Shown here: piece after piece, positions 9,544-63,557 of the stretch
How positions within the stretch are numbered: position 1 is the first letter of the stretch
Layout of the letters: each line of letters starts with the position of its first letter
NCBI RefSeq assembly: GCF_021646685.1
Contig: NZ_JAKJHW010000001.1
Span: 496,001-560,000 of the forward strand
DNA: 64,000 nt
DNA from: Pseudalkalibacillus salsuginis
GTDB taxonomy: Bacteria; Bacillota; Bacilli; Bacillales; Fictibacillaceae
Reading direction: 5' to 3'
Made by a program: the position numbers and the translations under genes
The notes under the pieces: generated by a model
What the model was told of the DNA's origin: nothing
Seen by the model: only the letters and a program-made list of their open reading frames with translations
Database searches by the model: none

Positions 9544-9655
9544 GAAAAGCGGAAGCGACCTGCTTAGTCACGTAGGTCACTGGAAAACTGACGAGGAGGC
9601 TGTCACCGCCGCAGGAAGTTTGAAGTGATCCAAGTGACTGGTCGCTGAGCTAGAC
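9544..9655 (+). repeat. Structured intergenic repeat, copy A (full length)
   Basis: A 112-bp element from GAAAAGCGG to CTAGAC. It folds into one long interrupted hairpin. AGCGACC (9554-9560) pairs with GGTCGCT (9640-9646) and AGTCAC (9566-9571) with GTGACT (9634-9639). GGTCACT (9575-9581) pairs with AGTGATC (9624-9630, one wobble) and AAACT (9585-9589) with AGTTT (9617-9621). The apical loop is about 27 bases. It has no open reading frame of note. A truncated second copy follows after five A residues. It is the same family as the elements at 31570 and 63330. Confidence 0.9.
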
Positions 9656-9660
9656 AAAAA

Positions 9661-9733
9661 GAAAAGCGGAAGCGACCTGCTTAGTCACATAGGTCACTGG
9701 AAAACTGACGAGGAGGCTGTCGCCACCGCAGGA
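9661..9733 (+). repeat. Structured intergenic repeat, copy B (5' arm only)
   Basis: Nearly identical to the first 73 bases of copy A, in the same orientation, five bases downstream of it. It stops in the apical loop at CGCAGGA, exactly where a different repeat fragment begins. Without the 3' arm it cannot form the hairpin alone, although its 5' arm could pair with the 3' arm of copy A. Confidence 0.85.
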
Positions 9734-9752
9734 GTGTCACGAATTTTGCAGA
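9726..9752 (-). repeat. Fragment of a second repeat family
   Basis: On the minus strand this reads TTCGTGACACTCCTGCGG, sharing the core ACACTCCTGCKGG with segments near 14204 and 52142. Its end is fused to the truncated end of repeat copy B, so one element probably inserted into, or recombined with, the other. Confidence 0.6.
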
Positions 9753-9812
9753 AATCAGCTTTAAAGGATTTTCCCCTCACTTACTGTGAAATCCGGAGTT
9801 TCGAGTATTAGA

Positions 9813-9838
9813 AAAACGAGCCCTGCTACGAGCCCGTT
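9813..9838 (-). terminator. Terminator of the recJ-apt unit
   Basis: On the minus strand AACGGGCTC pairs with GGGCTCGTT (two wobbles) across six bases and ends in a T run, about 16 bases after the apt stop codon. Confidence 0.8.
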
Positions 9839-9853
9839 TGTTTGTCATCGAAT

Positions 9854-10366
9854 TTAATATTGCATGAGTGTGAAAATGTCATACCCGTCCAATTTTTCCC
9901 GTCCGTTCAAGTAAGTCAATTCAATCATGAATGCGATTCCAACTACAATCCCGCCAAGCTTTTCTACTAATTGGATCGTGGCTTCAATCGTCCCGCCTGT
10001 CGCAAGGAGATCATCTGTGATCAAAACCCGTTCGCCTGGTTTAATCGCATCCTTATGGATTGTCAATACATCTTTACCATATTCTTTCCCGTAGTCGACC
10101 TTTACCACTTCGCGGGGCAATTTCCCTTCTTTACGAATCGGCACGAATCCGACTTCCATCGCATATGCAACCGGGCATCCGACGATGAATCCCCTTGCTT
10201 CAGGTCCTACAACCACATCAATTTGTTTTTCCTTTGCATATGTAACGATATCATCCATCGCTTGTTTGTAGATTTGACCTTCTTGCATAAGTGTAGATAT
10301 GTCCTTGAAACGAATTCCTTTATGAGGGAAATCTTCAACAACTTCGATATATTGTTTATAATCCAT
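9854..10366 (-). CDS. apt: Adenine phosphoribosyltransferase
   Basis: Purine salvage enzyme that converts adenine plus PRPP to AMP and pyrophosphate. The 170 residues starting [14 protein letters not shown] are full length. The PRPP-binding loop [13 protein letters not shown] (near 118-130) and the adenine-binding region ([10 protein letters not shown] near 60) are intact. The start at 10366 lies four bases after the recJ stop codon, and its GAGGAGG site overlaps the last codons of recJ, so the two genes are coupled. An in-frame upstream ATG inside recJ would add sixteen basic residues not seen in the family. The recJ-apt-relA order is that of Bacillus. Confidence 0.96.
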
Positions 10367-10370
10367 CTTT

Positions 10371-12731
10371 CTAGTAAGCCTCCTCAAATCGAACAGCATC
10401 TTTTTCATCTTCAAAAAACCATCGCTTCAAATCACGATAGGAGGAGTAACATAAGTCATTCTCAAGACTTGCCTGCTCTTGTTTTCTCCTATACGTCGCG
10501 GATTCAGTAAGCGGTCGTTTCATTGGTTGGTCTGTCACTGTTATAACACCATTGTCTATTGTAACAAATTCAAGCTCAAAAAACACCTGTGACATGAAAT
10601 AGACAGACTCTTTCGTCCAACCTTTATAAGCTGCCAGATCTGCTGCACGTGTCTTATAATCAAAAGTACCCTGCTTTTTTAAAAAGGAATAATACCATTT
10701 GAAAGAATCCCTTGTCGGAATCGGATTGAAATAATGATCTTCTTCATGGTGGAAAACCGTATAGACCCGTTCTACGGAGGAACCATAGTTCATCAGTTGC
10801 TTCAATTGATCCTTACTGGAAGGCAAATCAAGAATAATCAAATATCGGCCTTCCAGTTCAAGTGATTCAAGGGAAACTTCCTCAGAAATTTGTATTATTC
10901 GATCCTCCCAATTCTTCAAGCTTAATGATTCTATCGTTTCTTCTTTAAAAGAAAGCAATTGGACCTTGTTCCGATCAAGGAGCTCCAATCGACTCGTAAG
11001 ATTTTTGATGCCACGGTAGTCGAAAAGCTGCTTTTCCTTGACTGCGATATCCTGTATCATCAATTGCGGCTTTCTAAAACCATTCCATTCATTGATCGAC
11101 AACTCGCCTACGACTGAAATCGAAGCGTTTGGAGTGATCTCTTCGAACACCTCCCCAAAATGAAAACCGATTACATCCAAATTGGAACGATCCCCTTTTA
11201 ACGATAGTTTCAAATGCTTGGAGTCGCTTCCTATCCTACGAATCTCTTTCAATCTGCATTGGTCGATGAGAAACCTCGGTTTAGGATTGTCAACTCCAAA
11301 GGGCTCCAACGCTTTTAGTTCTTCTATGACATCAAGTGAAATGTCATCAACAGAACATTGAAGGTCGATCGAGGTTGTCGGCGAAAAATCTTCCTCTGTC
11401 AATTTTTCTTTCGCCTGCCGATTGAGCCTTTCCCTCAACTGATCTAGGTATTCAAGCTGAAGTGTCATACCTGCTGCCATTGGATGCCCGCCGAAGTGCG
11501 GTAAGATATCCCGGCATTCTGATAAATTCTCAAACATATCAAATCCTGTGATGCTCCGAGCGGATCCTTTTGCGACACCTTTTTCCGGATCGATACTCAA
11601 AATGATCGTGGGCCGATAGAATTTCTCGACGATACGAGAGGCGACGATGCCGATCACACCAGGATTCCAATCTTCCTTCGCAATGACCAACACTGAATTG
11701 TCGTCTGGAGGATATTGTTTTTCTACAATTTCCACAGCTTCTTTCGTGATTCCATTGACCAGGTCTTGCCTTTCTTTATTCACTGCATCTATTTCTTGAG
11801 CGATCATCTTAGCTTGATCCGTGTCTGAAGTGGTAAACAGGTCAACAGCTGGATCAGCTGAGTCCAGTCTTCCAGCCGCATTGACACGTGGACCGATCCC
11901 GAACCCGATGTGTTCAGAGGAAAGTTGTTTATCTACTAATCCACAGACCTTCAATAAAGCTCGTAAACCAGGCTTAGGTGTGGTTTCTAGTTTCTGTATA
12001 CCGACCTTTACAATTAAACGGTTCTCATCCACAAGAGGGACAAGATCGGCAATTGTTCCAATACAAGCAATATCAAGTAAATGCAACGGGGCTTCTCCTA
12101 ATAGGGCGTGAGATACCTTGAACGCCACCCCTACCCCAGCCAGTCCTTTGAATGGATATGTACATCCCGGTTTCTTCGGATTGATCGTAGCATATGCATC
12201 CGGCAGTTCAGGCTGAGGTTCATGATGATCCGTTATGATCAAATCCAGTCCGATTTCCTTCGCTACTTCTGCCTCATGAATCGCAGATATACCCGTATCG
12301 ACCGTAACGATCAACGTATATCCCTGGTCCTGAGCCCATCTGAAAGCGGCTTCGTTAGGACCATATCCTTCCGTGAAACGATTGGGAATATAATAGTCAA
12401 AATCGGCTCCAAGCTCACGCAATGTATAAATCATGACCGATGTACTGCTGACACCATCTGCATCATAATCTCCAAAAATCAATATTTTTTCTTCTTGCTC
12501 GATTGCTTTCTTAATCCGTTCAACTGCTAAGTCCATTCCATCCATCAGGTAGGGGTCATAAAAATCAACATTTTCCGTATGTAAAAAGTTCGTGACTTCC
12601 TCTATATCTTGCTTACCTCTATTGACTAACAATCCCGCTACTAGCGGTGATAGACCGAGACTATCCACCAGTTCATTTCTTTTTGACTGGTCTACTTCCG
12701 CGACACACCATCGTGTCCTCGAATTCAACAT
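10371..12731 (-). CDS. recJ: Single-stranded-DNA-specific exonuclease RecJ
   Basis: 5'-to-3' ssDNA exonuclease of the DHH superfamily, used in RecF-type recombination and repair. Of 786 residues, the DHH part (about 60-230) holds [13 protein letters not shown] and TDHHEPQ and the DHHA1 part (about 340-460) ends in FGGHPMAAG. An OB-like domain (about 460-560) and the extra C-terminal RecJ_C region of Bacilli (about 570-780) follow. The start at 12731 (MLNSRTRW) has AGAGGTGG upstream; an earlier in-frame ATG lacks one. The invariant metal-binding aspartates and histidines are all in place. It is translationally linked to apt downstream. Confidence 0.95.
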
Positions 12732-12796
12732 AAAACCACCTCTTAACTCACTCATTATACAAGAGTGTTTCAAGAGGTGGCAAATTGTAATTTGGA

Positions 12797-13144
12797 CTAT
12801 GATATTGAGTTATCGGAAGAATTTGCAGTCTGAGACGTATTCTTTTTTGATACACGGTCTTTTTTAGTTTTATGGTCAGAGCTTCTCTGGTCATTGATCA
12901 AATGTTCGTTCCTTTTACGCAATGACCTTATTTCTTTTTTCATGGAATAGAGTCTTGCTGAGCCTGCAAAGCCGACAACCAGCGCTCCTAGCATAGCAGA
13001 GCCCAATATGACCAGGACTAACGGCCAATGGGCGGTCCCGACTAAATAATCCACTTCAACTGCCTTCACGTTAATGACAGCGAATACAGCGACAATAATT
13101 GAAAAGAGCAATACAATGATGAAGCTCCATTCTTTTCTCACCAT
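12797..13144 (-). CDS. lapA: LapA-domain membrane protein
   Basis: A small envelope protein (LapA/DUF1049 family, YrvD position). The 115 residues contain two transmembrane helices (about 8-28 and 43-65, the second in GSAMLGALVVGFAG). A charged cytoplasmic tail predicted to form a short coiled coil follows (MKKEIRSLRKRNEHL), then a polar end rich in Ser, Asn and Lys. The ATG at 13144 overlaps the stop of the upstream cation transporter by one base and carries GGTG upstream. Enterobacterial LapA/LapB link phospholipid and LPS control, but that pathway does not exist in a Gram-positive, so the role here is unknown. Confidence 0.85.
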   Translation of the reverse strand: MVRKEWSFIIVLLFSIIVAVFAVINVKAVEVDYLVGTAHWPLVLVILGSAMLGALVVGFAGSARLYSMKKEIRSLRKRNEHLINDQRSSDHKTKKDRVSKKNTSQTANSSDNSIS

Positions 13145-14055
13145 CAATCACCATCCTTTTCTTCCTGATACGGATTAATATGTACAAAAACGTCGCGGAC
13201 CAACGATTGTTCAATTAACCGTCTTTTCACCTCTTTCCCAATATCATGTCCCTGTTGTACTGAAATCTCAGGATCGACCGCTATTTTGATATCAATGATG
13301 ACATAGTACCCGTGTTCCCTGGCAAAAAATTCATCGAGGTTCATGACACCCTCGACACTTTCAACGATTTTCCTCATTTCTACTGTGTCTTCGTCATGAA
13401 GGACATGATCAAGCGTATTATGAATCGATTCCGCCCCAAGCTTCCATGCAATCCTTAGAACAAGAAGAGAAACAGCTAATCCAGCGATCGGATCGGCATA
13501 TTCGAGCCAATTGACGCCTAATTTTCCTCCGAGGACAGCTGCACCGATACCAATAAGTGCTGCTATGGAAGAAAAGACATCTGATCGATGTTCATATGCA
13601 TTTGTGATGATCGCGTCGCTATTTATTCTTTTACCCAGACGGTACTTATATTGAAACATCAATTCTTTTGAGATGATCGAAAATATGACAGCATAGATCG
13701 CCCAGATCCTGGGGGCTTCGATCGGATGGAAGAAGGATTCAACCGATGAATAACCAATTTCAAGACCAACGATGAATAAAAGGACAGCTACGATTATGGC
13801 AGCGATCGATTCAGCTTTCCCGTGTCCATAGGGATGATCACGGTCAGGAGGAAGCTTTGCAGCCCTAAGACCTAGCAATACCGCAAATGACCCCCCAACA
13901 TCCGATGCAGAATGAACCGCATCAGCCATCAATGCACGACTGTTCGAGATATACCCGACCACTCCTTTTATGACTGCCAGGATAAGATTTCCCACAATGC
14001 CTACCCAAGCGGCAAATTCTCCTTGACGGAAACGTTCTTTGTTCTGATTGTCCAC
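13144..14055 (-). CDS. Cation diffusion facilitator family transporter
   Basis: Membrane antiporter that exports divalent metals (Zn, Fe, Mn or Co) in exchange for protons. About 303 residues show six transmembrane helices (about 15-205) with the paired metal-site motifs ALMADAVHSASDVGGS and AYEHRSDVFSS. A cytoplasmic C-terminal ferredoxin-like domain (about 210-295) follows. I chose the GTG at 14055 (MDNQNKERF), which has GGAG eight bases upstream, over a TTG at 14076. The DxxxD/HxxxD pattern resembles the YdfM/FieF-like group. Substrate cannot be told from sequence. It ends in a one-base overlap with lapA. Confidence 0.88.
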   Translation of the reverse strand: MDNQNKERFRQGEFAAWVGIVGNLILAVIKGVVGYISNSRALMADAVHSASDVGGSFAVLLGLRAAKLPPDRDHPYGHGKAESIAAIIVAVLLFIVGLEIGYSSVESFFHPIEAPRIWAIYAVIFSIISKELMFQYKYRLGKRINSDAIITNAYEHRSDVFSSIAALIGIGAAVLGGKLGVNWLEYADPIAGLAVSLLVLRIAWKLGAESIHNTLDHVLHDEDTVEMRKIVESVEGVMNLDEFFAREHGYYVIIDIKIAVDPEISVQQGHDIGKEVKRRLIEQSLVRDVFVHINPYQEEKDGD

Positions 14056-14127
14056 GATATCCACTCCAAACAACAATCTCCATAATAACTTACGCTACCG
14101 CAGATGATTTTAAACATGTCTTGCTAC

Positions 14128-14233
14128 ACGGCAAAGAGCCACTGTCCTTTTTGGAGGCTCTGTTAAATTTTAATAGTGTTTACATATAGAAAATGGATTT
14201 ACGCGAAATTCACCACACTCCTGCGGGAAAAGC
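14128..14233 (+). repeat. Intergenic repeat mosaic, second family
   Basis: The gap between secDF and the cation transporter holds a GAGCC...GGCTC hairpin followed by GGCTCTGTTA, then an AT-rich spacer and CACACTCCTGCGGGAA. The last block matches segments near 9735 (opposite strand) and 52142. The GGCTCTGTTA block reappears near 52180 on the other strand. This looks like the debris of a widespread Bacillaceae intergenic repeat. Confidence 0.55.
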
Positions 14234-14234
14234 C

Positions 14235-14271
14235 AAAAAGGTTGACCGAAGAGTTCAATCTGGTCAACCTT
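14235..14271 (-). terminator. Terminator of secDF
   Basis: On the minus strand AAGGTTGACC pairs with GGTCAACCTT across a 17-base loop and ends in a T run, about eight bases after the secDF stop codon. Confidence 0.85.
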
Positions 14272-14278
14272 CTTTTAG

Positions 14279-16531
14279 TTAATCAGTAGATTGTGCTGGT
14301 TTCACACGTTTCTTTTTCAATTGCTTCGCTTTTAATACCAGCCATATTTGAGCAGCAATGAAGAGAGAAGAATAAGTACCTGCAACCAATCCGATCAACA
14401 GGGCAAATGAGAAATTCGTGATTGCCGGGCTTCCGAAAATCATAAGGGCTAACGCTGCAAAGACCGTACTGAGAACAGTGTTGATGGATCGGCCGAAGGT
14501 CTGTACAAGACTCACGTTTACAATCCTTGATAAATCTTCGAATGTCTTTACCTTCGAGTATTTCATGTTTTCCCTGATCCTATCGAAAGTGACGATCGTA
14601 TCATTGATCGAGTAACCGACGATGGTCAGCACGGCAGCAATGAACGGAAGATCCACCTCGAGCCTCAATAAACTGAAAATCGCTACAATGAAGAATGCAT
14701 CGTGCAGCAAGGCAATGATCGACGACAAAGCCATCAACCATTCGAAACGGATTGTCACATAGATGATGATCCCAATTGACGCAATCGCAATTGCATAAAG
14801 GGCATTCTTTGCTAGTTCCCTTCCGACTGTAGGGTCGACTGTACTTACGTTCGGTTCTTGCCCATATTTTTCATTGTAGTATGACTTCAATTCACCAATT
14901 TCATCTTGTTTCAAAACACCTACGTATCGTGCTACTGCAATATTTTGATTTTCCCCTGAAATAATGACTTCTTCTGCCTCTAAACCTAATGAACGAAGCT
15001 GATCATCAATCGTTTCTTTATCAAGGGCCTGATCTGCAGTGATTTCAACACGGCTCCCACTCTCAAAATCAATGCCCAGGTTCAGCTGGAAGATCACAAG
15101 GGAAAGCAAACCAAGTCCGAGTAATACGCCTGATAGTGTAAAGAATTTCTTGCGATGCTTTACAAAATTGATGTTCTTGAATTTATTTTTCGAAATATCA
15201 AGACGGTCTGTATCATCCAGATCACTGATTTGTTCTTCTTTAACTCCGAACAATCGAGGCTTTTTATTAAGGATACGGCTTTTCACCCATAAACCGAGGA
15301 AAAGTCGTGATCCATAGACTGCTGTCAAAAAGCTTGTCAAAATACTGATGATCAATACAAGGGCAAACCCTTTGACTGCGCTTGTTCCAAAAATGAAAAG
15401 GACCGTTGCTGCAAGTATCGTTGTAATATTCGCATCAAGAATCGTCGATAATGACCGTTTATTTCCTGCCTTGAAAGCAGACATGACCGACTTTCCTGAA
15501 CGAAGTTCTTCTTTGATCCTCTCATATGTGATGATATTCGCATCGACAGCCATACCGACCCCGAGGATCAAGGCTGCAATCCCAGGGAGTGTGAGTACAC
15601 CCTCCATCCATTCAAAAATAAGCAGGATCAGATAGATATAGGTAGATAAGGTAACAACCGCGATGATTCCTGGAACACGATAATAGAGGATCATGAACAG
15701 GAAGATGACCGCAATACCAATCGCACCAGCAGTCACTGTTTTATCTAGAGAGTCTTGCCCGAATTTCGCACCGACAGAAGTCGAATACACCTCTGTCAAC
15801 TTGACTGGAAGGGATCCAGCGTTTAACAGATCTGTAAGCTTTTGTGCTTCTTCTACAGATTCGATTCCTGTAATGGTTGCTTGTTTTGAATTAATGACCT
15901 CTGTTACCTTTGGAGCAGATATATATTTAGGTTCCCCTGGAGCGTTACCTTCTTTTTTAACTTCTTCCTTGAAGGAATCCTTGCCTTCTTCAAAGTCAAG
16001 CCAGATGGCGAGACGGTTATCCGGCGGTCCCATCTCCATGACTTCTTTGGTAACTTGGCCGAATTTATCCCCGTCTTTCAACTCCAGGGCTACAATCGGG
16101 CGGTTCGCTTGCTGTGCAAACTCGACTTTCGCTCCGCCTTCTTTCAGATCAGAACCTTTCAACATGACGTTATCATTCACATCGCGGAAAGTAAGCTCCG
16201 CTTGTGTAGATAACAATTCACGTGCTTTATTCTGATCATCAACACCTGCAAGTTGTACACGGATCCGATTGCCTTCGATTTGGATATTAGGTTCAGAGAC
16301 CCCGAGTACATTTACCCTTTTGTTAAGGGCACTTACAGTATTGTTCAATAATTGCTTGTCTACTTCCTGATCTTCATTCGTTGGTTCCACATCATATAGA
16401 ACCTCGAATCCGCCTTGTAGATCAAGACCAAGTTTGATGTTCTTGACGATGTCCTTCGTCGTCCCCCCGATTGCTCCAGCAATCAAGATGACAAGAAGGA
16501 AAAAGGCGACAATCCGTCCTCTTTTAACCAT
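14279..16531 (-). CDS. secDF: Fused protein translocase subunit SecDF
   Basis: Membrane-embedded RND-type accessory of the Sec translocon that uses the proton gradient to pull preproteins out. The 750 residues are a natural SecD-SecF fusion, as in Bacillus. The SecD half (about 1-420) has its first helix at 8-28, the P1 periplasmic domain with IRVQLAGV, and a TM4-6 block with GMAVDANIITYERIKEE. The SecF half (about 450-740) has GIDFESGSRVEI and VGYSINDTIVTFDRIRE. The acidic residues of these two DxN/ND motifs are the proton-relay positions of the family. GGGAGG precedes the start. It is separated from comN by about 95 bases and has its own terminator. Confidence 0.97.
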   Translation of the reverse strand: MVKRGRIVAFFLLVILIAGAIGGTTKDIVKNIKLGLDLQGGFEVLYDVEPTNEDQEVDKQLLNNTVSALNKRVNVLGVSEPNIQIEGNRIRVQLAGVDDQNKARELLSTQAELTFRDVNDNVMLKGSDLKEGGAKVEFAQQANRPIVALELKDGDKFGQVTKEVMEMGPPDNRLAIWLDFEEGKDSFKEEVKKEGNAPGEPKYISAPKVTEVINSKQATITGIESVEEAQKLTDLLNAGSLPVKLTEVYSTSVGAKFGQDSLDKTVTAGAIGIAVIFLFMILYYRVPGIIAVVTLSTYIYLILLIFEWMEGVLTLPGIAALILGVGMAVDANIITYERIKEELRSGKSVMSAFKAGNKRSLSTILDANITTILAATVLFIFGTSAVKGFALVLIISILTSFLTAVYGSRLFLGLWVKSRILNKKPRLFGVKEEQISDLDDTDRLDISKNKFKNINFVKHRKKFFTLSGVLLGLGLLSLVIFQLNLGIDFESGSRVEITADQALDKETIDDQLRSLGLEAEEVIISGENQNIAVARYVGVLKQDEIGELKSYYNEKYGQEPNVSTVDPTVGRELAKNALYAIAIASIGIIIYVTIRFEWLMALSSIIALLHDAFFIVAIFSLLRLEVDLPFIAAVLTIVGYSINDTIVTFDRIRENMKYSKVKTFEDLSRIVNVSLVQTFGRSINTVLSTVFAALALMIFGSPAITNFSFALLIGLVAGTYSSLFIAAQIWLVLKAKQLKKKRVKPAQSTD

Positions 16532-16627
16532 ATGTATTTTCCTCCCATTATGCCGACAATCTGGATGTCCGTCCTTATGTTATGTAATGACAATACACCC
16601 TATTATATCCATCAGATAAATTGCATG

Positions 16628-16924
16628 TCAATTTTCCTTCAGCGTATCAAATGAATACCAATTATCATCAGTGACAGCCTGTATAGTCAGCCAATTCATA
16701 AAATCATTCGTCGAAAGGGTTAAAATTTGGTTGACCACCTGGTGGATCATCCAATCATCATCTTTCGTTTTTTTGGCACGGGAGATGACACAATTCCAGA
16801 TTTCTTCTTCTGTCACACTCTCATAACCCATGAAATGAATTTCTTCTTTTTTACTAGCCAATGCAGGGCTCACTTTAGGTAACCATTCTTCAAGAACCAT
16901 CGTTTCACTGTTTTTCTCAGACAC
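16628..16924 (-). CDS. comN: Post-transcriptional regulator ComN family
   Basis: A 98-residue cytoplasmic protein of the ComN (YrzD) family. In B. subtilis it promotes accumulation of the comE mRNA and is found at cell poles with DivIVA. The sequence starts from a GTG with AAAGGAGGG upstream (MSEKNSETMVLEEW). It has the family's WLP...KKEEIHFMGYE and EEIWNCVI segments and an acidic C terminus. Its place next to secDF matches yrzD. Apart from short amphipathic helices no domain can be seen. Family assignment is from sequence and synteny; comC, a gene of the same competence process, lies elsewhere in the window. Confidence 0.82.
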   Translation of the reverse strand: MSEKNSETMVLEEWLPKVSPALASKKEEIHFMGYESVTEEEIWNCVISRAKKTKDDDWMIHQVVNQILTLSTNDFMNWLTIQAVTDDNWYSFDTLKEN

Positions 16925-16971
16925 AATGTTTTCCCTCCTTTACTTTAAGGGTTGTCGATTTTTTATTCGTC

Positions 16972-17457: not shown

Positions 17458-17482
17458 TGTCTACACCTCAAAATTTATACTT

Positions 17483-28597: not shown

Positions 28598-30247
28598 TTA
28601 ACTTTTGTTTTTGCCCTTAGGTTCTTTTTTCTTTTCTTTTCGAGGCTGCATCTGGATGTCGATGTCCCAATAAGGATCTCTCCCAGGAGTTTGGCCCATA
28701 AATGGAAGCTGACCCATTCCGCCCTGATCTTGCTGCATCCACGGCATTTGTCCCGCTTGCTGGTCTTGGCCCATCATCGGAAATTGACCCATTCCCGCTT
28801 GCCCTTGCTGCATCCACGGCATTTGGCCTGCTCCTGCTTGATCTTGGCCCATCGTCGGAAACTGGCCCATTCCCGCTTGCCCTTGCTGTATCCACGGCAT
28901 TTGGCCTGCTCCTGCTTGATCTTGGCCCATCGTCGGAAACTGGCCCATTCCCGCTTGCCCTTGCTGCATCCACGGCATTTGGCCTGCTCCTGCTTGATCT
29001 TGGCCCATCGTCGGAAACTGGCCCATTCCCGCTTGCCCTTGTTGCATCCATGGCGATTGACCTGTGCCTTGCTGGCCTTGACCCATCGTCGGGAGCTGAC
29101 CCATTCCCGCTTGCCCTTGTTGCATCCATGGCGATTGACCTGTGCCTTGCTGGCCTTGACCCATCGTTGGGAACTGCCCCATTCCCGCTTGGTCCTGGGT
29201 TAGCCAGGGATTTTGTGCTTCATTATTTTGCCCATGTTGCATCCATGGCATCTGTCCTGCTCCCTGTTGATCTTGCTGCATCCATGGCATCTGCCCTGCT
29301 CCCTGCTGGCCATGTTGCATCCATGGCATCTGCCCTGCTCCCTGTTGATCTTGCTGCATCCATGGCATCTGCCCTGCTCCCTCCTGGCCATGTTGCATCC
29401 ATGGCATCTGCCCTGCTCCCTGCTGGCCATGTTGCATCCATGATTGACCCATTCCGCCATGACCTTGGCTCATCCATTGATAATCATCTGGAGCCATTTC
29501 TTCCATACCGTACATTCCTTGATGCCCCATGTAACCTGTTGGCATTTCTCCGTAATGGTCCATATGCCCATACATAGAGTAATCACCCATATGATGAGGC
29601 GAATATCCGTATGGTTGCATCATCGGATCACAGCAAGGATCCATCATTCCGTATGAATCATGGTAGCCCCATGGACCTGAACAAGGATCCGGCATGCAAT
29701 AATCGTCATATGGAACACATTCAACTGGAGGACATGGCTCTATAGGCTTTGGCTTTGGAATTTCATAAGTGGTCGTTTTTTCTTCCTGTTGTATGCCTAA
29801 TGTAATTTGAAACTCTTCCTCTGTAATCGGTGCCTTAGGTTTTTTAGGAACCGGTTTCTCCTTCACAATCGGCTTTTCCTTTATCGGTTTTTCTTTGATC
29901 GGCATCTCCTTTTTAATCGGCATTTCTTTTTTCACAGGCTTTTGAATAGGCATTTCTTTTTTCAGTTTAGGTATTGGCATTTCTTTTTTTGGTTTAGGAA
30001 TCGGTATTTCCTTTGCAATTGGCTTTTCTTTCATTTTCATATGAGGCTTGATATGGGGATTCAGATTGCCAGGTTTATTCGCTTTTCCGTGCGGATTACT
30101 TGCCGGTACATTTACTTTAGCACCTGGATAAATGATATCAGGTGTACTGATTTGGGGATTTGCTTTAATGACATCTTGTAACTCAACACCGTACATTTTA
30201 GATATTTTCCAGAGTGTATCCCCTTTTTTCACAATGTGAATTTTCAA
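28598..30247 (-). CDS. safA: Spore coat morphogenetic protein SafA, repeat-rich
   Basis: Inner-coat assembly protein that binds SpoVID and recruits coat proteins to the forming spore. The 549 residues start at a TTG (GGGAGGAGAT upstream) with a LysM domain (1-50, IHIVKKGDTLWKISKMYGV). A Lys/Pro/Glu linker made of KEMPI-type repeats follows (about 70-140). Then come a Cys/Met/Tyr/His-rich stretch (about 170-260) and a long tract of 13-residue Gln/Gly/Met repeats such as GAGQMPWMQQ (about 270-520). The tail is basic (PRKEKKKEPKGKNK). B. subtilis SafA also has a LysM head and a low-complexity body, but this repeat tract is distinctive. A TTG start limits expression. Confidence 0.9.
   Translation of the reverse strand: MKIHIVKKGDTLWKISKMYGVELQDVIKANPQISTPDIIYPGAKVNVPASNPHGKANKPGNLNPHIKPHMKMKEKPIAKEIPIPKPKKEMPIPKLKKEMPIQKPVKKEMPIKKEMPIKEKPIKEKPIVKEKPVPKKPKAPITEEEFQITLGIQQEEKTTTYEIPKPKPIEPCPPVECVPYDDYCMPDPCSGPWGYHDSYGMMDPCCDPMMQPYGYSPHHMGDYSMYGHMDHYGEMPTGYMGHQGMYGMEEMAPDDYQWMSQGHGGMGQSWMQHGQQGAGQMPWMQHGQEGAGQMPWMQQDQQGAGQMPWMQHGQQGAGQMPWMQQDQQGAGQMPWMQHGQNNEAQNPWLTQDQAGMGQFPTMGQGQQGTGQSPWMQQGQAGMGQLPTMGQGQQGTGQSPWMQQGQAGMGQFPTMGQDQAGAGQMPWMQQGQAGMGQFPTMGQDQAGAGQMPWIQQGQAGMGQFPTMGQDQAGAGQMPWMQQGQAGMGQFPMMGQDQQAGQMPWMQQDQGGMGQLPFMGQTPGRDPYWDIDIQMQPRKEKKKEPKGKNKS
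28740..29440 (-). repeat. Tandem repeats coding for the SafA Gln/Met/Gly tract
   Basis: A 39-bp unit coding for 13 residues (GAGQMPWMQQDQQ/HGQQ) is repeated head to tail in the upstream part. Further on it has become a 78-bp double unit alternating GAGQMPWMQQGQA with GMGQFPTMGQDQA; successive double units are spaced exactly 78 bp (28860, 28938). Near-identity between units at DNA level points to recent expansion. The periodicity keeps several other frames open, including on the opposite strand, which are not genes. Confidence 0.9.
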
Positions 30248-31569: not shown

Positions 31570-31738
31570 GAAAAGCGCAAACGCCCTGATCAACTACGAA
31601 GGTCACTGGAAGTCCGACGAGGAGGCTCGAACCAAACAAAGTTCGGTTCTGCGTGGGCAAATACTTCAAACTAAATCAATGTGTCGGCCGCCGCAGGAGG
31701 ATTGAAGTGATCCAAGTGGTTGGGCGATGGAGCTAGAC
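31570..31738 (+). repeat. Structured intergenic repeat, copy C (with apical insertion)
   Basis: Same family as 9544-9655. The 5' arm runs from GAAAAGCGC to about 31626, followed by roughly 60 bases of extra sequence in the apical loop that include a GAACC/GGTTC hairpin. The 3' arm then runs from CGCAGGAGG to CTAGAC. Pairings are conserved through changes on both sides: CGCCC/GGGCG, AACTAC/GTGGTT, GGTCACT/AGTGATC and AGTCC/GGATT. Confidence 0.85.
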
Positions 31739-31743: not shown

Positions 31744-31762
31744 GAAAAGCGTAAACGCCCTT
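31744..31762 (+). repeat. Structured intergenic repeat, copy D (19-bp stub)
   Basis: GAAAAGCGTAAACGCCCTT repeats the first bases of copy C five bases downstream of it. It is the remnant of the second member of a head-to-tail doublet. Confidence 0.7.
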
Positions 31763-31791
31763 CGAAACAGAATTTATATACTTCTTATCTT

Positions 31792-31817
31792 TAAAAAAGA
31801 CTGTCATAGCGACAGTC
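31792..31817 (-). terminator. Terminator of the spo0B-obg operon
   Basis: On the minus strand GACTGTC and GACAGTC form a perfect stem with a five-base loop followed by six T residues. The stem starts at the obg stop codon itself. Confidence 0.85.
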
Positions 31818-33103
31818 TATTCGATAAATTCAAATTCATAATCCATTATCCGGACGATATCCCCATCTTCAGCACCGCGTTTCCTCAGCGCTTCATCAAT
31901 TCCCATCCTTCTCATTTGTTGAGCAAATCGTCGAACCGATTCATCTCTAGAAAAGTCCGTCATTTTGAAGAGACGTTCAATTTTCAATCCGGAGATGACA
32001 AAGGTTCCATCATCTTCTCTGGAAAGTTCAAATGGCTGCTCTTCACGTTGATGCTTATATAGGACTCTATCATCCTTTTCTTCTTCATCTTCAATCAATG
32101 GAAACTCTGGGGTCGTTTCCAGCTTATTCGCAATTTCAAATAACAGATCCCTGACCCCATCTTTTGTAATCGCGGAGATTGGGAAAACTGGGTATTCATC
32201 ACCGACCTGTTCTTTGAATAGTTCCAAGTTTTCCTGTGCATCCGGCATATCCATTTTGTTTGCAACCACAAGTTGCGGCCGTTCGGTCAACCGTAAATTA
32301 TATTGCCTTAGCTCTTCATTGATCTTCAAAAAGTCCTCGTAAGGATCTCTACCTTCTATCCCTGACATATCAAGGACATGCACGATGACTCGTGTCCGTT
32401 CGATATGCCTTAAAAATTGATGGCCCAAGCCTACTCCTTCATGCGCTCCTTCAATCAGACCTGGCAAATCAGCCATGACAAAGCTCCGGTTATCATCTGT
32501 TTCAACAACACCTAGATTTGGGCTCAAAGTTGTAAAATGGTACTCTGCAATCTTGGGTTTAGCTGCTGAAACAACGGATAAGAGCGTGGATTTCCCTACA
32601 CTAGGAAAGCCTACAAGCCCAACATCTGCAAGCAGCTTCAATTCTAACGTAACTTCTCTTTCTTCACCTGGTTCACCATTTTCAGACAGTTCTGGTGCTG
32701 GGTTTTTAGGAGTTGCGAAACGTGTATTCCCGCGTCCACCACGGCCGCCTTTTGCAATAACTGCTTGCTGGCCGTGATCGACGAGATCAGCAATAGCCTT
32801 CCCTGTCCTGGCATCCGTCACGACTGTGCCCGGGGGAACTTTAATAATCATATTTTCCGCATTGCGGCCATGCATATTTTTAGACATTCCATTTTCTCCA
32901 CGGGGAGCTTTGAAGTGACGGTTGTAACGGAAATCCATTAATGTCCTTAACCCTTCTTCCACTTGGAAAATGACATCTCCGCCTTTTCCCCCGTCTCCTC
33001 CTGCCGGGCCACCGTCGGGTACATATTTCTCTCTTCGGAAAGCGACCATTCCATTACCGCCATCCCCAGATTTTATAAAAACCGTTACCTGATCGACAAA
33101 CAT
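31817..33103 (-). CDS. obgE: GTPase Obg
   Basis: Essential GTPase linked to 50S ribosome assembly, stress signalling and, in Bacillus, Spo0A activation. The 428 residues have the glycine-rich Obg fold (1-158, [18 protein letters not shown]). The G domain follows, with G1 [12 protein letters not shown]3 [16 protein letters not shown] and G4 NKMD (about 160-330). The OCT domain of Gram-positives lies at about 350-428. AGGTGAGG precedes the ATG. It lies 20 bases after spo0B, the classical spo0B-obg pair. Confidence 0.98.
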
Positions 33104-52203: not shown

Positions 52204-52469
52204 ACAAAAAAACCTCTTTCGCATCCTCAAAGGACGAAAGAAGTTCGCGGTACCACCTTTGTTTACAGCACAAATCATATTAGGCTGCACACCTCAAATC
52301 GATAACGGTTTCAATACCGACTCCTCTTACTGATTGGTTCAGAGAAGTTGCTCAAGGGCGACGTTCAACTGTTACCTCCTGAGAAATCTTTCAGCAGATG
52401 ATTTCTCTCTCTTTAGGTTTCACAATTTACTCTTCCCTATCGAAGCTTACTATTTAGGATTTATTAGTA
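52204..52469 (-). promoter_or_regulatory. T-box riboswitch leader of valS, with terminator
   Basis: On the minus strand the T-box AAAGGTGGTACCGCG lies at about 52246-52260. The terminator (CTTTCG/CGAAAG with TCCT/AGGA above, 52216-52240) follows and ends in a T run. Upstream lie AGTA and AGAGAG elements, a CTGCTGAAAG loop and the string GAACGTCGCC. There the specifier GTC (52360-52362), a valine codon, follows GAAC exactly as in other T-boxes. Uncharged tRNA-Val should stabilise the antiterminator and turn valS (and folC) on. Confidence 0.93.
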
Positions 52470-55907: not shown

Positions 55908-55931
55908 AGCAAGCTCCCCCTCTCAACACAA

Positions 55932-56123: not shown

Positions 56124-56126
56124 AAA

Positions 56127-56160: not shown

Positions 56161-56172
56161 TATTTTTAGTAT

Positions 56173-57480: not shown

Positions 57481-57500
57481 CTTAACACCCTTCCTATCCA

Positions 57501-58478: not shown

Positions 58479-59263
58479 CGTCGTTCCTCCTTTTGCAAAT
58501 AAGACTCGATCGAAGCAACCAAGCCTTCAGTTGTATATTCGTCTGCAACAATATCTGCAGTTACTCCATATCCTTTGAGTGTCTCAGCTGTAATCGGTCC
58601 GATACACGCCCATATCCGATCCTTCAGAATGACTTCTTCTTCCCCCAACTGAAAGAAAAAATGAACGGTTGATGGGCTAGTGAAAGTAAGAATGTCGACA
58701 TCACCCCTTCTCATCATCTCTTTCAGATCTATTCGCATATTATCGTTCGGCACAGTTTCATAAGTGATGACGGCTTCAACATTTCTTCCTGCCTCACCCA
58801 GGTTATCAATGATGATGCTGCGCGATAAATTCCCATGTGGGAGCAAAATGCGGTCGCCAATTTTCGTATGATTGATGAATTCCTCTGTAAATATTTCTGC
58901 TACAAATTTAGTAGGGACGAAGTCAACTTCTATACCCCACTTCTCTAAAAGTTCTACGGTTTTTTTGCCTATCGCAGCTATCTTCACTGTATCCAGAAGT
59001 TCAAACGGACGTCCTTCTTTCTCCATTTGACTCTTGAAAAACCGGACCGTGTTCTGACTTGTAAAAACGACCCACTGGAAATGTTCAATCTCGTGGATCG
59101 CTCTTCTTAATGCTGTATTATCACTTGGAGTCTTAAAAGAGAGCAGGGGAACCACGACAGCCTCCCCTCCTCTTTGTTCAATTGAATGGACAAGCGGAAG
59201 AGCCTGTTCTTCAGATCTTGTTATTAATATTTTATGACCTGAAAACGGCGATCCTGTATCCAT
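58475..59263 (-). CDS. hemD: Uroporphyrinogen-III synthase
   Basis: Closes and inverts ring D of hydroxymethylbilane to uroporphyrinogen III. The 262 residues have the two-lobed fold with poor overall conservation typical of the family. Recognisable parts are [12 protein letters not shown] at the N terminus, [12 protein letters not shown] (near 70), ITYETVPND (near 160) and [15 protein letters not shown] (near 185). The start overlaps the hemC stop by one base and its end overlaps hemB by four. Confidence 0.95.
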
Positions 59264-60198
59264 TACTGATCAAGCTCCTTTTTTACTCGATCTAAAATAT
59301 CCTTGGCACCCCGTTCACTTAGTCTGTTAGCTAGTTCGATGCCGATTTCCTCTGGATTAGTGCCTTGAATGGTATCTTTAATTATCGTTTTTCCATCTGG
59401 AGTTGAAACGAATCCTGTCAGGGTGATCGTTCTTGAGTCATGAGCCAATTCTGCAAGACCACCGATCGGTACTTGGCAGCCACCTTCAAGTGTACGTAGG
59501 AACGCTCTTTCAGCACGGACTGTATCGAAGGTATCAGGACAGTTGATTTTTTCCAACCAATCTTTCAATTCCTGATCACTTTCCCGGCATTCAATGGCAA
59601 GAGAACCTTGCCCAACAGCGGGGATACAAACATCCTTCTCCAAATATTGAGTGACCACATCATCTGACCATCCCATACGCTTCAACCCGGCAGCTGCTAA
59701 CACAATGGCATCATAGTCTTCATTCTGAAGCTTTGCAAGCCTTGTATCAATGTTTCCTCTGATCCATTTTATAGAGAGGTCCGGACGTTTCGCAAGTAAT
59801 TGTGCTCCTCTTCTAAGACTGCTCGTTCCAACGATTGCACCATCAGGTAATTTTTCAAAAGGAACATGATTCTCTGAAATGAGCGCATCGCGATCATCCT
59901 CCCTCGGTGGTGTACAAGCTAATTCAAGCCCTTCCGGAAGGACAGACGGCATGTCTTTCATACTGTGGACAGCAAAATCGATTTCCTTATCCATCATCGC
60001 CTGTTCAATTTCTTTGACGAAAAGACCTTTTCCGCCGACTTTTGAAAGGGTGACGTTCAAAATCTGGTCTCCCTTCGTTACAATCTCCTTGATTTCAAAC
60101 TCGAATGGCGCCCCCGCTTTTTTCAATTGATCGATTACCCAACGCGTTTGAGTAAGAGCAAGTTTACTTCTTCGAGAACCGATAATGAGCTTGCGCAT
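59263..60198 (-). CDS. hemC: Hydroxymethylbilane synthase (porphobilinogen deaminase)
   Basis: Polymerises four porphobilinogens on a dipyrromethane cofactor. The 311 residues begin [17 protein letters not shown]. They contain [11 protein letters not shown] (catalytic Asp, near 80), [21 protein letters not shown] (near 150) and the cofactor-bearing Cys in [11 protein letters not shown] (near 241). GGAGG precedes the ATG at 60198. The frame stays open 32 codons further upstream, but that part is encoded by an intergenic repeat and is not conserved protein. Confidence 0.97.
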
Positions 60199-60229
60199 AA
60201 TTGACCTCCAAATGTAGATTCGAATTTCA

Positions 60230-60299
60230 GACGGTGCCAGGCACGACAATTTGACCCTTGTGCCCCAAGCGATCCAGAAAAGTGCCTGGTACATGCGTC
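60230..60299. repeat. GGTGCCAGGCAC-type inverted repeat within the hem operon
   Basis: GACGGTGCCAGGCAC (60230-60244) and the imperfect complement GTGCCTGGTAC...GCGTC (60282-60299) can form a 70-base hairpin in the hemX-hemC gap. This motif is familiar from intergenic repeats of many Bacillales. It would be in the middle of the hemAXCDBL transcript and might act as a pause or partial terminator, or stabilise the downstream message. Confidence 0.7.
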
Positions 60300-60358
60300 A
60301 TGTCCTATGACAAAGACAGTATCAGCTTATCCAGTGTGGTGGATATCCGCTAAACCTT

Positions 60359-61186
60359 CTAATACCATAGGTGAAACTCCGTAAGTGTAGCAGCTAAAAA
60401 ATAATTGATGAGGATGACGAGAAGACCGGCGACATTCCAATAAGCCAGCTGCCTCCCGTACGCCTCTTTTCCTACTTTCAGATACAAATAGATTCCATAT
60501 ACAGATAATACAATGAACGAACTAATCACTTTTGCATCTACGAAGATTGCTAGTGTCATGTATACTTTGTATCCATAAATCAAGCCTAGTACCAGACTGA
60601 GAAACAGGATCGGGACACCGATCATATTCAATATGAAAGGCAACCTTTCAAGTCGTGTAAGACTTTCGAAACGCCATAGCCATTTCCCTACTTTCTTCTT
60701 TTTCAACAGGTTGTATTGAACCAGGTACATGACCGATAGGATACTCGATACCGTAAAAGCGCCATACGCAATGAATGCCATCGTAATATGTATGATCGCT
60801 AATTCATTGATCAGTTGATCTGAAAATGCTTCAGATACTTGGCTGTTCGGAGCAAACCAGCTGACAGCCATGAGTATGAATCCGATGATATTCGTAAAAA
60901 ACACGAAGAAATGTACCCTGAAAAACCAGTTGATCAAAAGGGAAAGTGTGACAATTACCCAGGAATAAAAAAATAACCCTTCCGTAGGTGTGAGTATCGG
61001 AAAGCGGTCAGCTTCAAAAATCCGTAATATTAGAACGAATGATTGCAATACCCAGACAATAGAAAGCAACCAGAAGGCTATTCGGTTCGCCTTCCGGTTG
61101 TTTTGCAGGAAATCCATGAAATATCCTAGTACACTGAGTGCATATAAAATGATTGTAATATCGTAAATCCACCTGATAATACTCAC
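60359..61186 (-). CDS. hemX: HemX, CcsA-like membrane protein
   Basis: Integral membrane protein that lowers the amount of HemA in B. subtilis. The 275 residues have about eight hydrophobic segments and belong to the cytochrome c assembly (CcsA/CcmC) family, but the tryptophan-rich haem-handling signature of true CcsA is reduced. It starts at a GTG with GGAG upstream, 27 bases after hemA, and is followed by hemC after a repeat-bearing gap. Confidence 0.93.
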   Translation of the reverse strand: MSIIRWIYDITIILYALSVLGYFMDFLQNNRKANRIAFWLLSIVWVLQSFVLILRIFEADRFPILTPTEGLFFYSWVIVTLSLLINWFFRVHFFVFFTNIIGFILMAVSWFAPNSQVSEAFSDQLINELAIIHITMAFIAYGAFTVSSILSVMYLVQYNLLKKKKVGKWLWRFESLTRLERLPFILNMIGVPILFLSLVLGLIYGYKVYMTLAIFVDAKVISSFIVLSVYGIYLYLKVGKEAYGRQLAYWNVAGLLVILINYFLAATLTEFHLWY

Positions 61187-61213
61187 GATACAACTCCTCT
61201 CCTGGGAGCAAGA

Positions 61214-62584
61214 CTAATTCGTCGCTGGGTTGGAGATCGTTTGAAAAGACTTCTCTCCTTCTACCTCAGGCAACTTTTGTTCGCGAGCAAGACGCTCCTC
61301 TTTTAATACCTGTTCCAACTCTTCTTCAATTCCGAACAGCTGTGTGAAAAGATCTATATGCTTATTGGAATCAGGTTCAGCTGCCAACTCTTTCACACGT
61401 GTGATCGGATCACGAAGCAATTGATTGATGATACTTTTTGTATGTTTGCTGAGTACCTTCCGTTCACGCTCCGTAAGATCAGGTATTTTACGTTCGATGC
61501 TTTTCATCGTTTCAGCCTGGATGGAAAGTGCTTTCTGTCTTAAGGCTGTGATGACAGGAACAACTCCGAGGGTATTGATCCAGTTCAAAAATGCAAGCAG
61601 TTCTTCTTCAATAAATAAACGGATCTTAGCCGCTTCTTCTTGTCGCTCAGCTAAGTTCGCCTCGACAATTCCTTCTAAATCATCAATATCATATAGGAAG
61701 ACACCTTCAAGCTCCTGCAGATCTGGAGAAAGGTCTCTTGGTACCGCAATGTCCATCATGAACAACGGTTTCCCTTTTCGTTTCTTCAAAACTGGGGCAA
61801 CGTTCGCTTTCGTAAGCACAAACTCTGTTGAACCAGTAGAACTGATCACAATATCCGCTTTCTTCAACGAAGATTCCAGCTCTTCCATAGTAGAAGCTTG
61901 CCCATTAAAACGAGCTGCTACTTCCTGCGCTTTTGCATATGTCCGATTGAGGACGGAAATTTGATCGACACCGTTACTGCATAGGTGTTTTGCAGTAAGT
62001 TCACCCATCTTCCCGGCACCAATGATCAATACATTCTTTCCTTCAAGTCCATCGAAAATTTTCTTAGCCAGTTCGACTGCAGCATAGCTCACAGATACTG
62101 CATTCTCTCCAATTTCAGTTTCGGAATGAGAGCGCTTTGCCAACGTGATCGCCTTTTTGAACAACTCGTTGAACACAGTACCGGTTGTCCCTGTTTCTTG
62201 TGCAGTCAAAAAGCTTGAACGCACTTGTCCAAGGATTTGGGTTTCCCCCAGGATCATCGAGTCCAGTCCACAAACCACCTTGAAGAGATGGTCTATGGCA
62301 TCCTCCCGTTCACGAATTTGTAAGTATGGGTTCAACAAATCTTTATCTAATGAAAACCAATCCGCTAAAAATGCTTTTATATAATATCGCCCTGTATGCA
62401 ACTGATCAGCGACGGCGTAGATTTCAGTACGGTTGCAGGTCGATACGATCACACATTCCAGTACGCTTTTCGTGTTTCTAAGCGACTGTAAAGCCAACTC
62501 CAATTCACCAGGTTGAAAAGATACTTTTTCCCGTATTTCAACCGGAGCTGTCTTATGGTTCAGCCCAACTTTTAAAATGTGCAT
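61214..62584 (-). CDS. hemA: Glutamyl-tRNA reductase
   Basis: First committed enzyme of tetrapyrrole synthesis; it reduces glutamyl-tRNA(Glu) to glutamate-1-semialdehyde with NADPH. The 456 residues have the catalytic Cys50 in [12 protein letters not shown], the NADP-binding [13 protein letters not shown] (near 190) and a long C-terminal dimerisation helix region (about 310-420). GGGGGTG precedes the ATG. It heads the hem operon. Its substrate is charged by GltX, not in this window. Confidence 0.98.
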
Positions 62585-62638
62585 CGTCCGTCACCCCCTG
62601 TATTTATGTAAATGAGTATATATAATTTCCCAATAGCC

Positions 62639-62667
62639 ATTATAGCATGTCCAATCAATTATTATTC
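62639..62667 (-). promoter_or_regulatory. Promoter of the hem operon with PerR-box-like core
   Basis: An extended -10 (TGCTATAAT, minus strand, -10 box at 62639-62644) lies about 55 bases before hemA; the -35 is poor. Overlapping the -35 area (62653-62667) is GAATAATAATTGATT, whose centre ATAATAATT matches the core of the PerR operator but whose ends do not. B. subtilis hemA is PerR-regulated. Confidence 0.4.
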
Positions 62668-62853
62668 GAAACAAATGTGAACAGTGTTTGAAAGTCTTAT
62701 GGTATGATTTTTAATAGATAAAATCAGCATTCCCTTTTACACCAAATTTTAGTATCTCATAGGTTTCCAAGCTCCATACAAATCTAATGTACCAAATTTC
62801 GAAGGTTTTCGCAAAAGAACAGCATGATTTTTGAGCTCTGTGAGGAGGAGATT

Positions 62854-63318
62854 ATGAAACAAGGTATTTTTCCAGGAACATTGATTGCAGGTTTAGGTGT
62901 CTATTTTTTGTCAAAGCAATGGTCTGTTCCTTTTATTAGTGAGATCGATGCCCTTCCTGCATTCTTATTGATCATCGGGATAGCATTCCTATTACAAAGG
63001 AATGAACCTTACGCTCTGTTTTCCGGTGTAGTCATTTGCGGTATTGCTTTCCATTACTATGCCAGCGGTAATATCGCCAATTGGCCAGCCTTATGGATCG
63101 TATATTTTCTTAGTATCGGCACAGGATTTCTTCTGCAATATAATCGAACGAAGCAGAGCGGCTTATGGATCGGTGCAGTCCTGACTATCATTTCCCTGAT
63201 TGCACTTTTTTCAACTAATACAAAGGGAATCATCCGTACGATCATCAATTATACCGAACAATTTTGGGCAGTAATCCTGATTGTCATCGGATTTTATTTG
63301 ATTAAACGAAAAAAATGA
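62854..63318 (+). CDS. LiaF-like transmembrane-domain protein
   Basis: The 154 residues have five to six hydrophobic helices over nearly the whole length (about 7-22, 30-48, 52-70, 76-96, 102-122, 128-150). They resemble the LiaF/DUF5668-type membrane module without its C-terminal soluble domain. I chose the ATG at 62854 with GAGGAGGAG upstream over one ten codons earlier. It is divergent from hemA. Function unknown. Confidence 0.75.
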   Translation: MKQGIFPGTLIAGLGVYFLSKQWSVPFISEIDALPAFLLIIGIAFLLQRNEPYALFSGVVICGIAFHYYASGNIANWPALWIVYFLSIGTGFLLQYNRTKQSGLWIGAVLTIISLIALFSTNTKGIIRTIINYTEQFWAVILIVIGFYLIKRKK

Positions 63319-63329
63319 CTCTTGCCTAT

Positions 63330-63441
63330 AAAAGCGGAATCGCCCTGTTTAGCCACGAAGGTCACTGGAAGTCCGACGAGGAGGCTGTCGCCGCAGCAGG
63401 AGGACTGAAGTGATCCGAGTGGTTGGGCGGTGAAGCTGGAC
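63330..63441 (+). repeat. Structured intergenic repeat, copy E (full length)
   Basis: Same family and length as 9544-9655. CGCCC (63341-63345) pairs with GGGCG (63425-63429) and AGCCAC (63351-63356) with GTGGTT (63419-63424, one wobble). GGTCACT (63360-63366) pairs with AGTGATC (63409-63415), and AGTCC (63370-63374) with GGACT (63402-63406). Compared with copy A, several pairs have changed on both sides. Confidence 0.9.
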
Positions 63442-63444
63442 ATC

Positions 63445-63557
63445 AAAAGCGGAATCGCCCCTGGTTAGCCACGAAGGTCACTGGAAGTCTGACGAGGAGG
63501 CTGTCACCGGCGAAGGAGGACTGAAGTGATCCGAGTGGTTGGGCGGTGAAGCTGGAC
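63445..63557 (+). repeat. Structured intergenic repeat, copy F (full length)
   Basis: Second member of the doublet, three bases after copy E in the same orientation and nearly identical to it. Differences lie mainly in the apical loop and in one position of the inner stem (AGTCT/GGACT, a tolerated wobble). Confidence 0.9.

Follow-up and report, generated by a model that had tools for sequence, protein, structure and literature searches.

Repetitive extragenic palindromic (REP) elements are high-copy, extragenic hairpins that keep complementary changes and lack a larger target duplication, and a RAYT gene can lie between two repeat copies in inverted orientation, as described in the passages available of one study (PMC2817692); passages of another define the REP as a tagged palindrome of 20–40 bp (PMC3733652). 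In similar excerpts, the Bhal-1 and Bhal-2 families of Bacillus halodurans are stem-loop repeats of 74 and 76 bp with 36 and 50 copies (PMC2267715). The bcr repeats of the Bacillus cereus group are 100–400 bp long and described as mobile, with bcr1 averaging 39 copies per strain, mobility linked to TTTAT repeats and the first element called restricted to the group (PMC6542083, passages). The corresponding excerpts describe BOX elements of Streptococcus pneumoniae as end modules with optional middle modules whose number varies between strains (PMC3049150) and state, with regard to group IIC introns, that endonuclease-less introns obtain their primer at the replication fork (PMC4424553). Here, we describe a family of hairpin repeats recognized at three loci of a 64,000-nucleotide stretch of the Pseudalkalibacillus salsuginis chromosome (C7:496001–560000, hereafter the window; genome G000, 4.29 Mb in 19 contigs). 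The family is probably a mobile element that has a folded single strand as its substrate, is mobilized in trans and is targeted to transcription terminators.

The first-pass annotation had listed copies or parts of copies at six places in three window loci, and all were recovered to within 1–2 bases. These copies were well placed; however, the element proved larger than had been supposed, with a 3′ tail and an adjacent terminator as typical parts, and the copy at 31571–31738 is a long form. Two unit types, both starting with AAAAGCG, span lengths of 112–168 nt: a short (S) unit of ~112 nt (AAAAGCG...GAGCTAGAC) and a long (L) unit of ~168 nt, which is the S unit with an apical domain of ~54 nt added. 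The whole element measures ~160 nt upwards and consists of one or a few hairpin units followed, in the genus, by a tail ending near TATACTTTCTTATCC. The window arrays comprise an S unit and a truncated S unit (9545), an L unit and 16 nt of a second unit (31571), and two S units (63330–63557), in agreement with the earlier observation that the second member is truncated at two of the three loci.

A covariance model, R1, was built from 55 S copies of G000 and a near relative and gave at least 150 matches in G000 (150 of 1505 candidates scored). With a 72-nt piece of the L insert as query, 163 candidates arose, and the 40 that were scored gave at least 40 hits. Of these, 19 lie outside the R1 set, which brings the family to at least 169 matches in this genome; BLAST with one copy gave at least 76 (40 of 256 candidates scored). 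The 150 R1 matches form 127 loci, of which 18 are double, one is triple, one is quadruple and 107 hold a single unit, as counted by a model that leaves strongly truncated second units, such as those at two of the window loci, mostly unscored. The proposal that copies always occur as head-to-tail doublets therefore fails. Where arrays exist, the units do run head to tail, 17 of 23 joins having a gap of 6 nt (units of one strand grouped), and no inverted unit pairs were present among the arrays read at the fetched loci.

The four full window copies each fold on the plus strand into one interrupted hairpin, as had been observed, with energies of −45.1 to −58.5 kcal/mol compared with −26.3 to −45.8 kcal/mol for their complements. 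Of 71 distinct copies, 67 are predicted to have a lower energy as the plus strand than as its complement. The compensatory changes first seen between window copies are also real, few among close copies and strong across genera. In an alignment of copies from G000 and the near relative (A1), 6 of 34 pairs changed on both sides against a mean of 2.4 in shuffles, which here and below carry no correction for relatedness, and 2 of 500 shuffles reached as high; this covariation is modest and is not our main evidence. None of the 43 predicted pairs in 20 L units (A2) showed two-sided changes, including those of the extra apical domain.

Across genera, we show that covariation is strong and that the folded plus strand is conserved by compensatory changes. 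Among 77 matches (74 distinct) from 50 sources (A3), 32 of 34 pairs carried two-sided changes (23.2 in shuffles), with 446 such cells against 125 and a covariation score of 0.508 against 0.177 in shuffles and at most 0.120 for slid partners. Because A3 was aligned to R1 and is hence fitted to the model, the count was also made on 21 distinct copies, one per locus, that needed no gaps. In this gap-free set, 94.0% of pair cells are paired (78.7% in shuffles, maximum 82.1%), two-sided changes affect 23 of 34 pairs (12.7 on average in 1000 shuffles, maximum 17) and two-sided cells number 118 (39.7 in shuffles, maximum 59). Variation is lower at unpaired positions (entropy 0.49) than at paired ones (0.65). 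G-U combinations outnumber A-C combinations by 30 to 6, or by 21 to 5 without one G-U-majority column, and it is therefore the plus strand that forms the folded molecule. The suggestion of selection on, or copying through, a folded single strand is thus supported by cross-genus covariation together with strand asymmetry.

We also show that copies are recent insertions. Twenty flank pieces of G000 loci served as one query, and orthologous sites were fetched from Alkalihalobacillus sp. YIM B00296 (G005; 19 sites, flank identity 90–99%, mostly ~97%) and from genome G006 (17 sites, mostly ~77–86%). R1 found the element at 7 of the 19 sites in G005 and at none of the 17 in G006, where the flanks were recognized on both sides at 15 sites and went unrecognized on one or both sides at L013 and L011. 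The sites were picked as occupied in G000, so losses from G000 could not show, and the occupied state is taken as derived by parsimony over the empty sites of G005 and G006. With 12 of 19 sites empty in a close relative, the activity is therefore recent, and the orthologous empty sites support mobility. Sites occupied in both G000 and G005 also differ, in unit number at L003, L018 and L033 and in S versus L type at L007, L029 and L038.

Empty junctions could be read on both sides at 6 of the 12 empty G005 sites (L008/L135, L011/L139, L035/L141, L030/L142, L013/L149 and L032/L153); at the remainder, the left flank has diverged or another repeat is present. The junctions join CAGT to AAAAAAGCTGCC (L008/L135), AATGAC to AAGAAAAAACGC (L011/L139) and TTCC to AAAAAAACACC (L035/L141). 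The element usually starts with (A)AAG AAAAGCG and ends at the tail, and the join coincides with the A-tract or precedes it by a few bases. A duplication of 4 bases is readable at L035 and L030 and not at L008, L011 or L032; target duplication is not consistent over the six readable sites.

The place of insertion is typically a terminator. The last unit is usually followed by a tail (typically ATCACTTCACCGCAACCAAAATTTTTATACTTTCTTATCC) and then by an A-tract and an intrinsic-terminator hairpin whose sequence is specific to the locus. Of 60 last units, 39 have an A-tract with a hairpin in the 130 nt that follow, compared with 7 of 60 and 5 of 60 in two control stretches, and several of the 21 misses have a further unit downstream or a longer hairpin by eye. 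The 15-mer TTATACTTTCTTATC from the tail has 28 exact matches in G000, and its reversed control has none; 17 matches lie near a unit (model or L insert), while the other 11 include bare or truncated tails (e.g., L175, L184 and L192) and further copies (e.g., L171 and L185). Neighboring genes, taken as open reading frames (ORFs) of at least 80 codons without annotation, were compared at 57 loci. The right neighbor lies on the minus strand at 45, its gene end a median of 97 nt away, and the left neighbor lies on the minus strand at 33 and on the plus strand at 18, with none found at 6. From these strands and distances, the element sits mostly beyond the terminator of the right-hand gene and antisense to that gene. 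In orientation, 138 of the 150 R1 matches follow the majority direction of their contig. The window itself has 52 of 56 ORFs on one strand and a GC skew of −0.085 to −0.134, and we rejected the orientation bias as proof of coupling to replication, since it is inseparable from the uniform ORF direction.

The family is widespread in the order: among 397 genomes from 135 genera, R1 matched 230, which represent 82 genera (nine candidates scored per genome, strict filters). BLAST found it in 8 of 8 genomes of the genus and in 0 of 16 other genomes of the same family, and R1 found a single match in each of five genomes of the family that belong to other genera. In a 299-genome sample of the phylum, R1 matched three genomes, all from the same order, of which one further genome gave no match; the 295 sampled genomes from outside the order had none (12 candidates scored each). 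A search of 50,697 phage records with one query found nothing, and three queries against 72,556 plasmid records matched two, from Geobacillus subterraneus and Anoxybacillus amylolyticus, with nothing from a plasmid search using an f47-family copy; the element is largely chromosomal. A 30-base scan of genome contigs matched only Alkalihalobacillus sp. YIM B00296 (36 stretches). At the gathering threshold, Rfam 15 places no family at the repeat copies in the window. The open PubMed Central literature searched, which mostly leaves out subscription papers and was not in every search aimed at novelty, contained no description of the family in the passages returned.

In the reading that we prefer, the folded plus strand would be recognized and copied by a trans-acting enzyme, and the target would be a terminator hairpin plus its T-tract, as for group IIC introns. 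As to mechanism, the one we hold most likely, although still tentatively, is reverse transcription of a plus-strand RNA that starts at the 3′ end of the terminator T-tract, with pairing through an A-tract. Priming at that end would give insertion without target duplication. We favor an RNA intermediate because the folded strand is the plus strand, whereas the lagging-strand template should mostly be the minus strand, and because the joins lie at the T-tract with no consistent target duplication. The fullest version of this proposal is a bacterial retroelement resembling short interspersed nuclear elements (SINEs): a structured non-coding plus-strand RNA, conserved across the order, reverse transcribed in trans at terminator T-tracts, in more than 100 copies and with no gene of its own. 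We consider this version rather doubtful.

Several observations weigh against the preferred reading, beginning with the enzyme itself, for which no candidate was identified. No PF00078 reverse transcriptase (RT) was found in G035, G070, G054, G229 or G344, in each of which all 9 of 9 scored candidates matched R1, and those RT loci that were examined belong to group II introns, which lack the tail of the element. In an L-insert-anchored test, 5′ truncation occurred at 1 of 30 loci (L239) and loss within the 3′ part at 3 of 30 (L246, L250 and L257), after automatic flags at 2 and 5 loci were reduced by reading the sequences of the 30 best-scoring of 40 hits, among which partial copies are under-represented. 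These counts give no bias to 5′ truncation such as target-primed reverse transcription predicts; in the same test, the tail motif was unrecognized at 10 of 30 loci, at two of them since another unit follows. Of 29 loci in genomes other than G000, some of which belong to the same genus, only 6 show the tail motif clearly (up to 3 mismatches). The right neighbor lies on the plus strand at 12 of the 57 loci, and the orientation bias is confounded with gene orientation. The strand asymmetry of the changes is also weaker in the other alignments, with G-U to A-C counts, G-U-majority columns excluded, of 34 to 30 among changed pairs of A1 and of 77 to 38 in all of A3. Individual copies may drift while the active lineage stays under selection.

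Within the genus, PF00078 RTs number 2 in G000, 1 in G001, 9 in G002, 1 in G003 and 4 in G005, with none in G004, G006 and G007. The three match-richest genomes (G000, G002 and G005) are also the richest in RTs, for which we claim no correlation. A group II RT was rejected as the partner, as repeat-rich genomes of other families have no RT and the intron ends carry no tail. No RT partner sharing the 3′ end of the tail was found among the RT loci examined, and a search with the tail pattern returned elements, bare tails and a second short repeat family that has the tail end in common. We likewise set aside 5′ truncation as a signature of retroposition; it was seen at tail-anchored loci and is an ascertainment effect. 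Group II introns with RTs of ~430–440 amino acids (aa) occur at L204, L205 and L216 in G000 and G005.

A different enzyme is central to the best of the alternatives, in which, as for REP and IS200/IS605 elements, a tyrosine (HUH) transposase would recognize the hairpin as single-stranded DNA at the replication fork and insert it with no duplication of the target. The precise joins without consistent duplication, the strong orientation bias, the conserved hairpin and a Y1-domain gene in G000 all fit such a system. However, Y1 genes do not track the element across the genomes tested: the seven g4-genus genomes examined have one Y1 match each yet zero or one R1 match, and Y1 matches are absent from G035, G229 and G284, in which R1 matched all 9 of 9 scored candidates. 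The only Y1 match of G000 lies ~440 bp from an element at C17:285195, and among 15 Y1 regions fetched this is the one that holds the element, as a single copy. The adjacency is most likely a coincidence, because the other 14 regions have no copy and the gene is flanked by other repeats (GGTGCCAGGCAC), and we rejected this Y1/RAYT-like gene as the partner. Moreover, GC skew and gene strand suggest that the exposed lagging-strand template is the minus strand, but it is the plus strand that folds better. We therefore regard a REP-like or IS200/IS605-like origin as unlikely, and the likening to REP elements in the first-pass annotation was not supported, given units of at least 112 nt arranged head to tail rather than as inverted pairs and a Y1 gene beside other repeats. 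At L279:2207–2794, this 195-aa transposase gene, RAYT-like by resemblance, lies beside tandem GGTGCCAGGCAC repeats, and the Y1 region of G007 (L281) contains GGGTCGAGGGACCTGTCCC...GACCC repeats.

Slightly less probable still is that the family is primarily a functional RNA of 3′ regions or ribosomal RNA (rRNA) spacers, such as an RNase target, an mRNA stabilizer or a block to readthrough, selected at many copies with spread being secondary. Its loops and pairing are conserved, it lies at gene ends and, in the f13 group, copies occur in rRNA operons located by Rfam models, before 16S (L113 and L124), between 16S and 23S (L114) and before 5S (L112), several of them in the sense direction. Four further f13 copies (L109 and L115–L117) presumably also lie in rRNA operons, judging from the rRNA ends read in their flanks, whereas others (L119, L121 and L123) adjoin a tail and terminator as in G000. 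Against a primary function, two close genomes are unlike at 12 of 19 sites, shared sites differ in unit type and number, and recent changes show little strand asymmetry; since 33 of 57 left neighbors read away, the plus strand would also often need a promoter of its own. Some f13 rRNA copies lie next to a second subtype, which shares the outer stems but differs in its inner part (L114:1379–1494 and L116:184–297); this subtype also occurs outside rRNA (L110:1619–1738). It is very improbable that the family is an ordinary miniature inverted-repeat transposable element (MITE), derived by deletion from an insertion sequence and mobilized by the DDE transposase of the latter: it is small, intergenic, recently inserted and without a long ORF, but it has no convincing terminal inverted repeats by eye (5′ AAGAAAAGCG versus reverse-complemented 3′ end AAGGATAAGAAAGTAT) and no consistent target duplication in the six readable empty sites, and no parent element turned up in an analysis that did not search for insertion sequence families.

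The features of the three window loci are collected in Table 1.

Table 1. Hairpin units, tails and likely terminators in the window
Feature	Position	Strand	Basis
Short (S) unit, full length	9545..9655	+	R1 covariance-model score 120.1 bits
Second S unit, truncated	9662..9733	+	Sequence comparison
Long (L) unit, S-type stems plus extra apical domain	31571..31738	+	R1 114.9 bits
Extra apical domain of the L unit, ~54 nt, hairpin and further stem predicted	31628..31681	+	
Initial 16 nt of a second unit, joined to the tail	31745..31760	+	Sequence
3′ tail, variant (TTCGAAACAGAATTTATATACTTCTTATCTTT)	31761..31792	+	Placed by comparison with other loci
A-tract and hairpin, likely intrinsic terminator, ending minus-strand ORF 31817–33103	31793..31818	-	By inspection
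S unit, full length (query copy E)	63330..63441	+	R1 132.6 bits
Second S unit, full length	63445..63557	+	R1 108.5 bits
3′ tail (ATCACTTCACCGAAATTTTTGCTTTCTTATCTTTG)	63558..63592	+	Sequence and comparison with other loci
A-tract, GGTGTGACC...GGTCACACC hairpin and T-run, at the insertion point; a likely intrinsic terminator	63593..63626	.	By inspection

Fusions of a partial unit to the tail like that at 31745–31760 are also found at L040, L006 and L173. The tail variant that follows it was missed by a tail-motif scan allowing 2 mismatches, and the match at 63575–63588 (2 mismatches) is not significant alone, 0.68 being expected by chance in the window. The locus at 9545–9733 looks chimeric because GTGTCACGAATTTTGCAGAAATCAGC, from ~9734, resembles by eye the end of another interspersed repeat (L101 and L145). 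This larger family (...TTTCTGCGAAATTCACTCCCTTTCCGCGGGCG...GCAGGAGTGTCGCGAATTTCGC...) is present at window 9734–9765, L023, L101, L145, L234, L249 and L256, and the hairpin unit seems, as read by eye, to be fused to it or inserted into it. The second short family, approximately GAAAACTTGGCAAAGCCAAGCC...GGCTGAGCCTTAGTTGC...GAAAGTATTTTATACTTTCTT, ends with the TACTTTCTT motif, as the hairpin element does, and has similar terminator sites (L025, L075, L145, L150, L154, L161, L163, L165, L180 and L197); at L180 and L197, it lies between the hairpin element and the terminator. Elsewhere in the window, Rfam matches at the gathering threshold are limited to a 6S RNA and two T-box leaders, at 469–648 (-), 4180–4420 (-) and 52227–52452 (-), and a tandem repeat with a 39-bp period (28678–29490) lies in a minus-strand ORF (28598–30247, 549 codons) for a repetitive protein.

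A structured repeat that is very widespread in Bacillus-like bacteria, with compensatory evolution across genera and no Rfam 15 match in the window, is of interest whichever intermediate it uses. A plus-strand RNA intermediate, if real, would make it a bacterial counterpart of SINEs, while a DNA intermediate would point to a hairpin-recognizing recombination system that targets terminators. Either answer would account for many intergenic sequences of these genomes and, in one family group, for parts of rRNA operon spacers. The recent activity seen at the 12 of 19 sites empty in a close relative makes mobility testable.

The passages available of PMC1590033, PMC2267715, PMC10969869, PMC3049150, PMC4424553, PMC2817692, PMC6542083 and PMC4342826 do not describe the present family, and the comparisons that follow rest on such passages. 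Bhal-1 and Bhal-2 are likewise stem-loop repeat families and, compared by description only, might be related. The bcr repeats are also small repeats of a Bacillus group and described as mobile; the present family occurs in 82 of 135 genera and at terminators and is set apart from them by the bcr descriptions rather than by sequence. Like BOX, the element is modular with a variable number of modules. However, BOX repeats boxB between boxA and boxC, whereas the present element repeats whole hairpin units head to tail, differs between S and L forms at the apex and inserts beside terminators. With REP elements it shares a conserved hairpin, high copy number, extragenic position and the absence of a larger target duplication, but its units of 112–168 nt exceed the REP palindrome as described, and a single copy in 1 of 15 Y1 regions takes the place of the inverted pair that flanks RAYT genes. 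REPs are arranged in alternating orientation as bacterial interspersed mosaic elements (BIMEs), whereas the present units run head to tail without alternation. Insertion at intrinsic terminators is shared with group IIC introns, from which the element differs in the absence of group II catalytic RNA domains, judged by Rfam, which matched no group II family in the window at its gathering threshold, in units of 112–168 nt that are too small for an RT of their own, and in a folded strand that is antisense to the terminated gene. Neither a REP, a group II intron nor a classical MITE by these comparisons, the element is in broad kind a small interspersed structured repeat.

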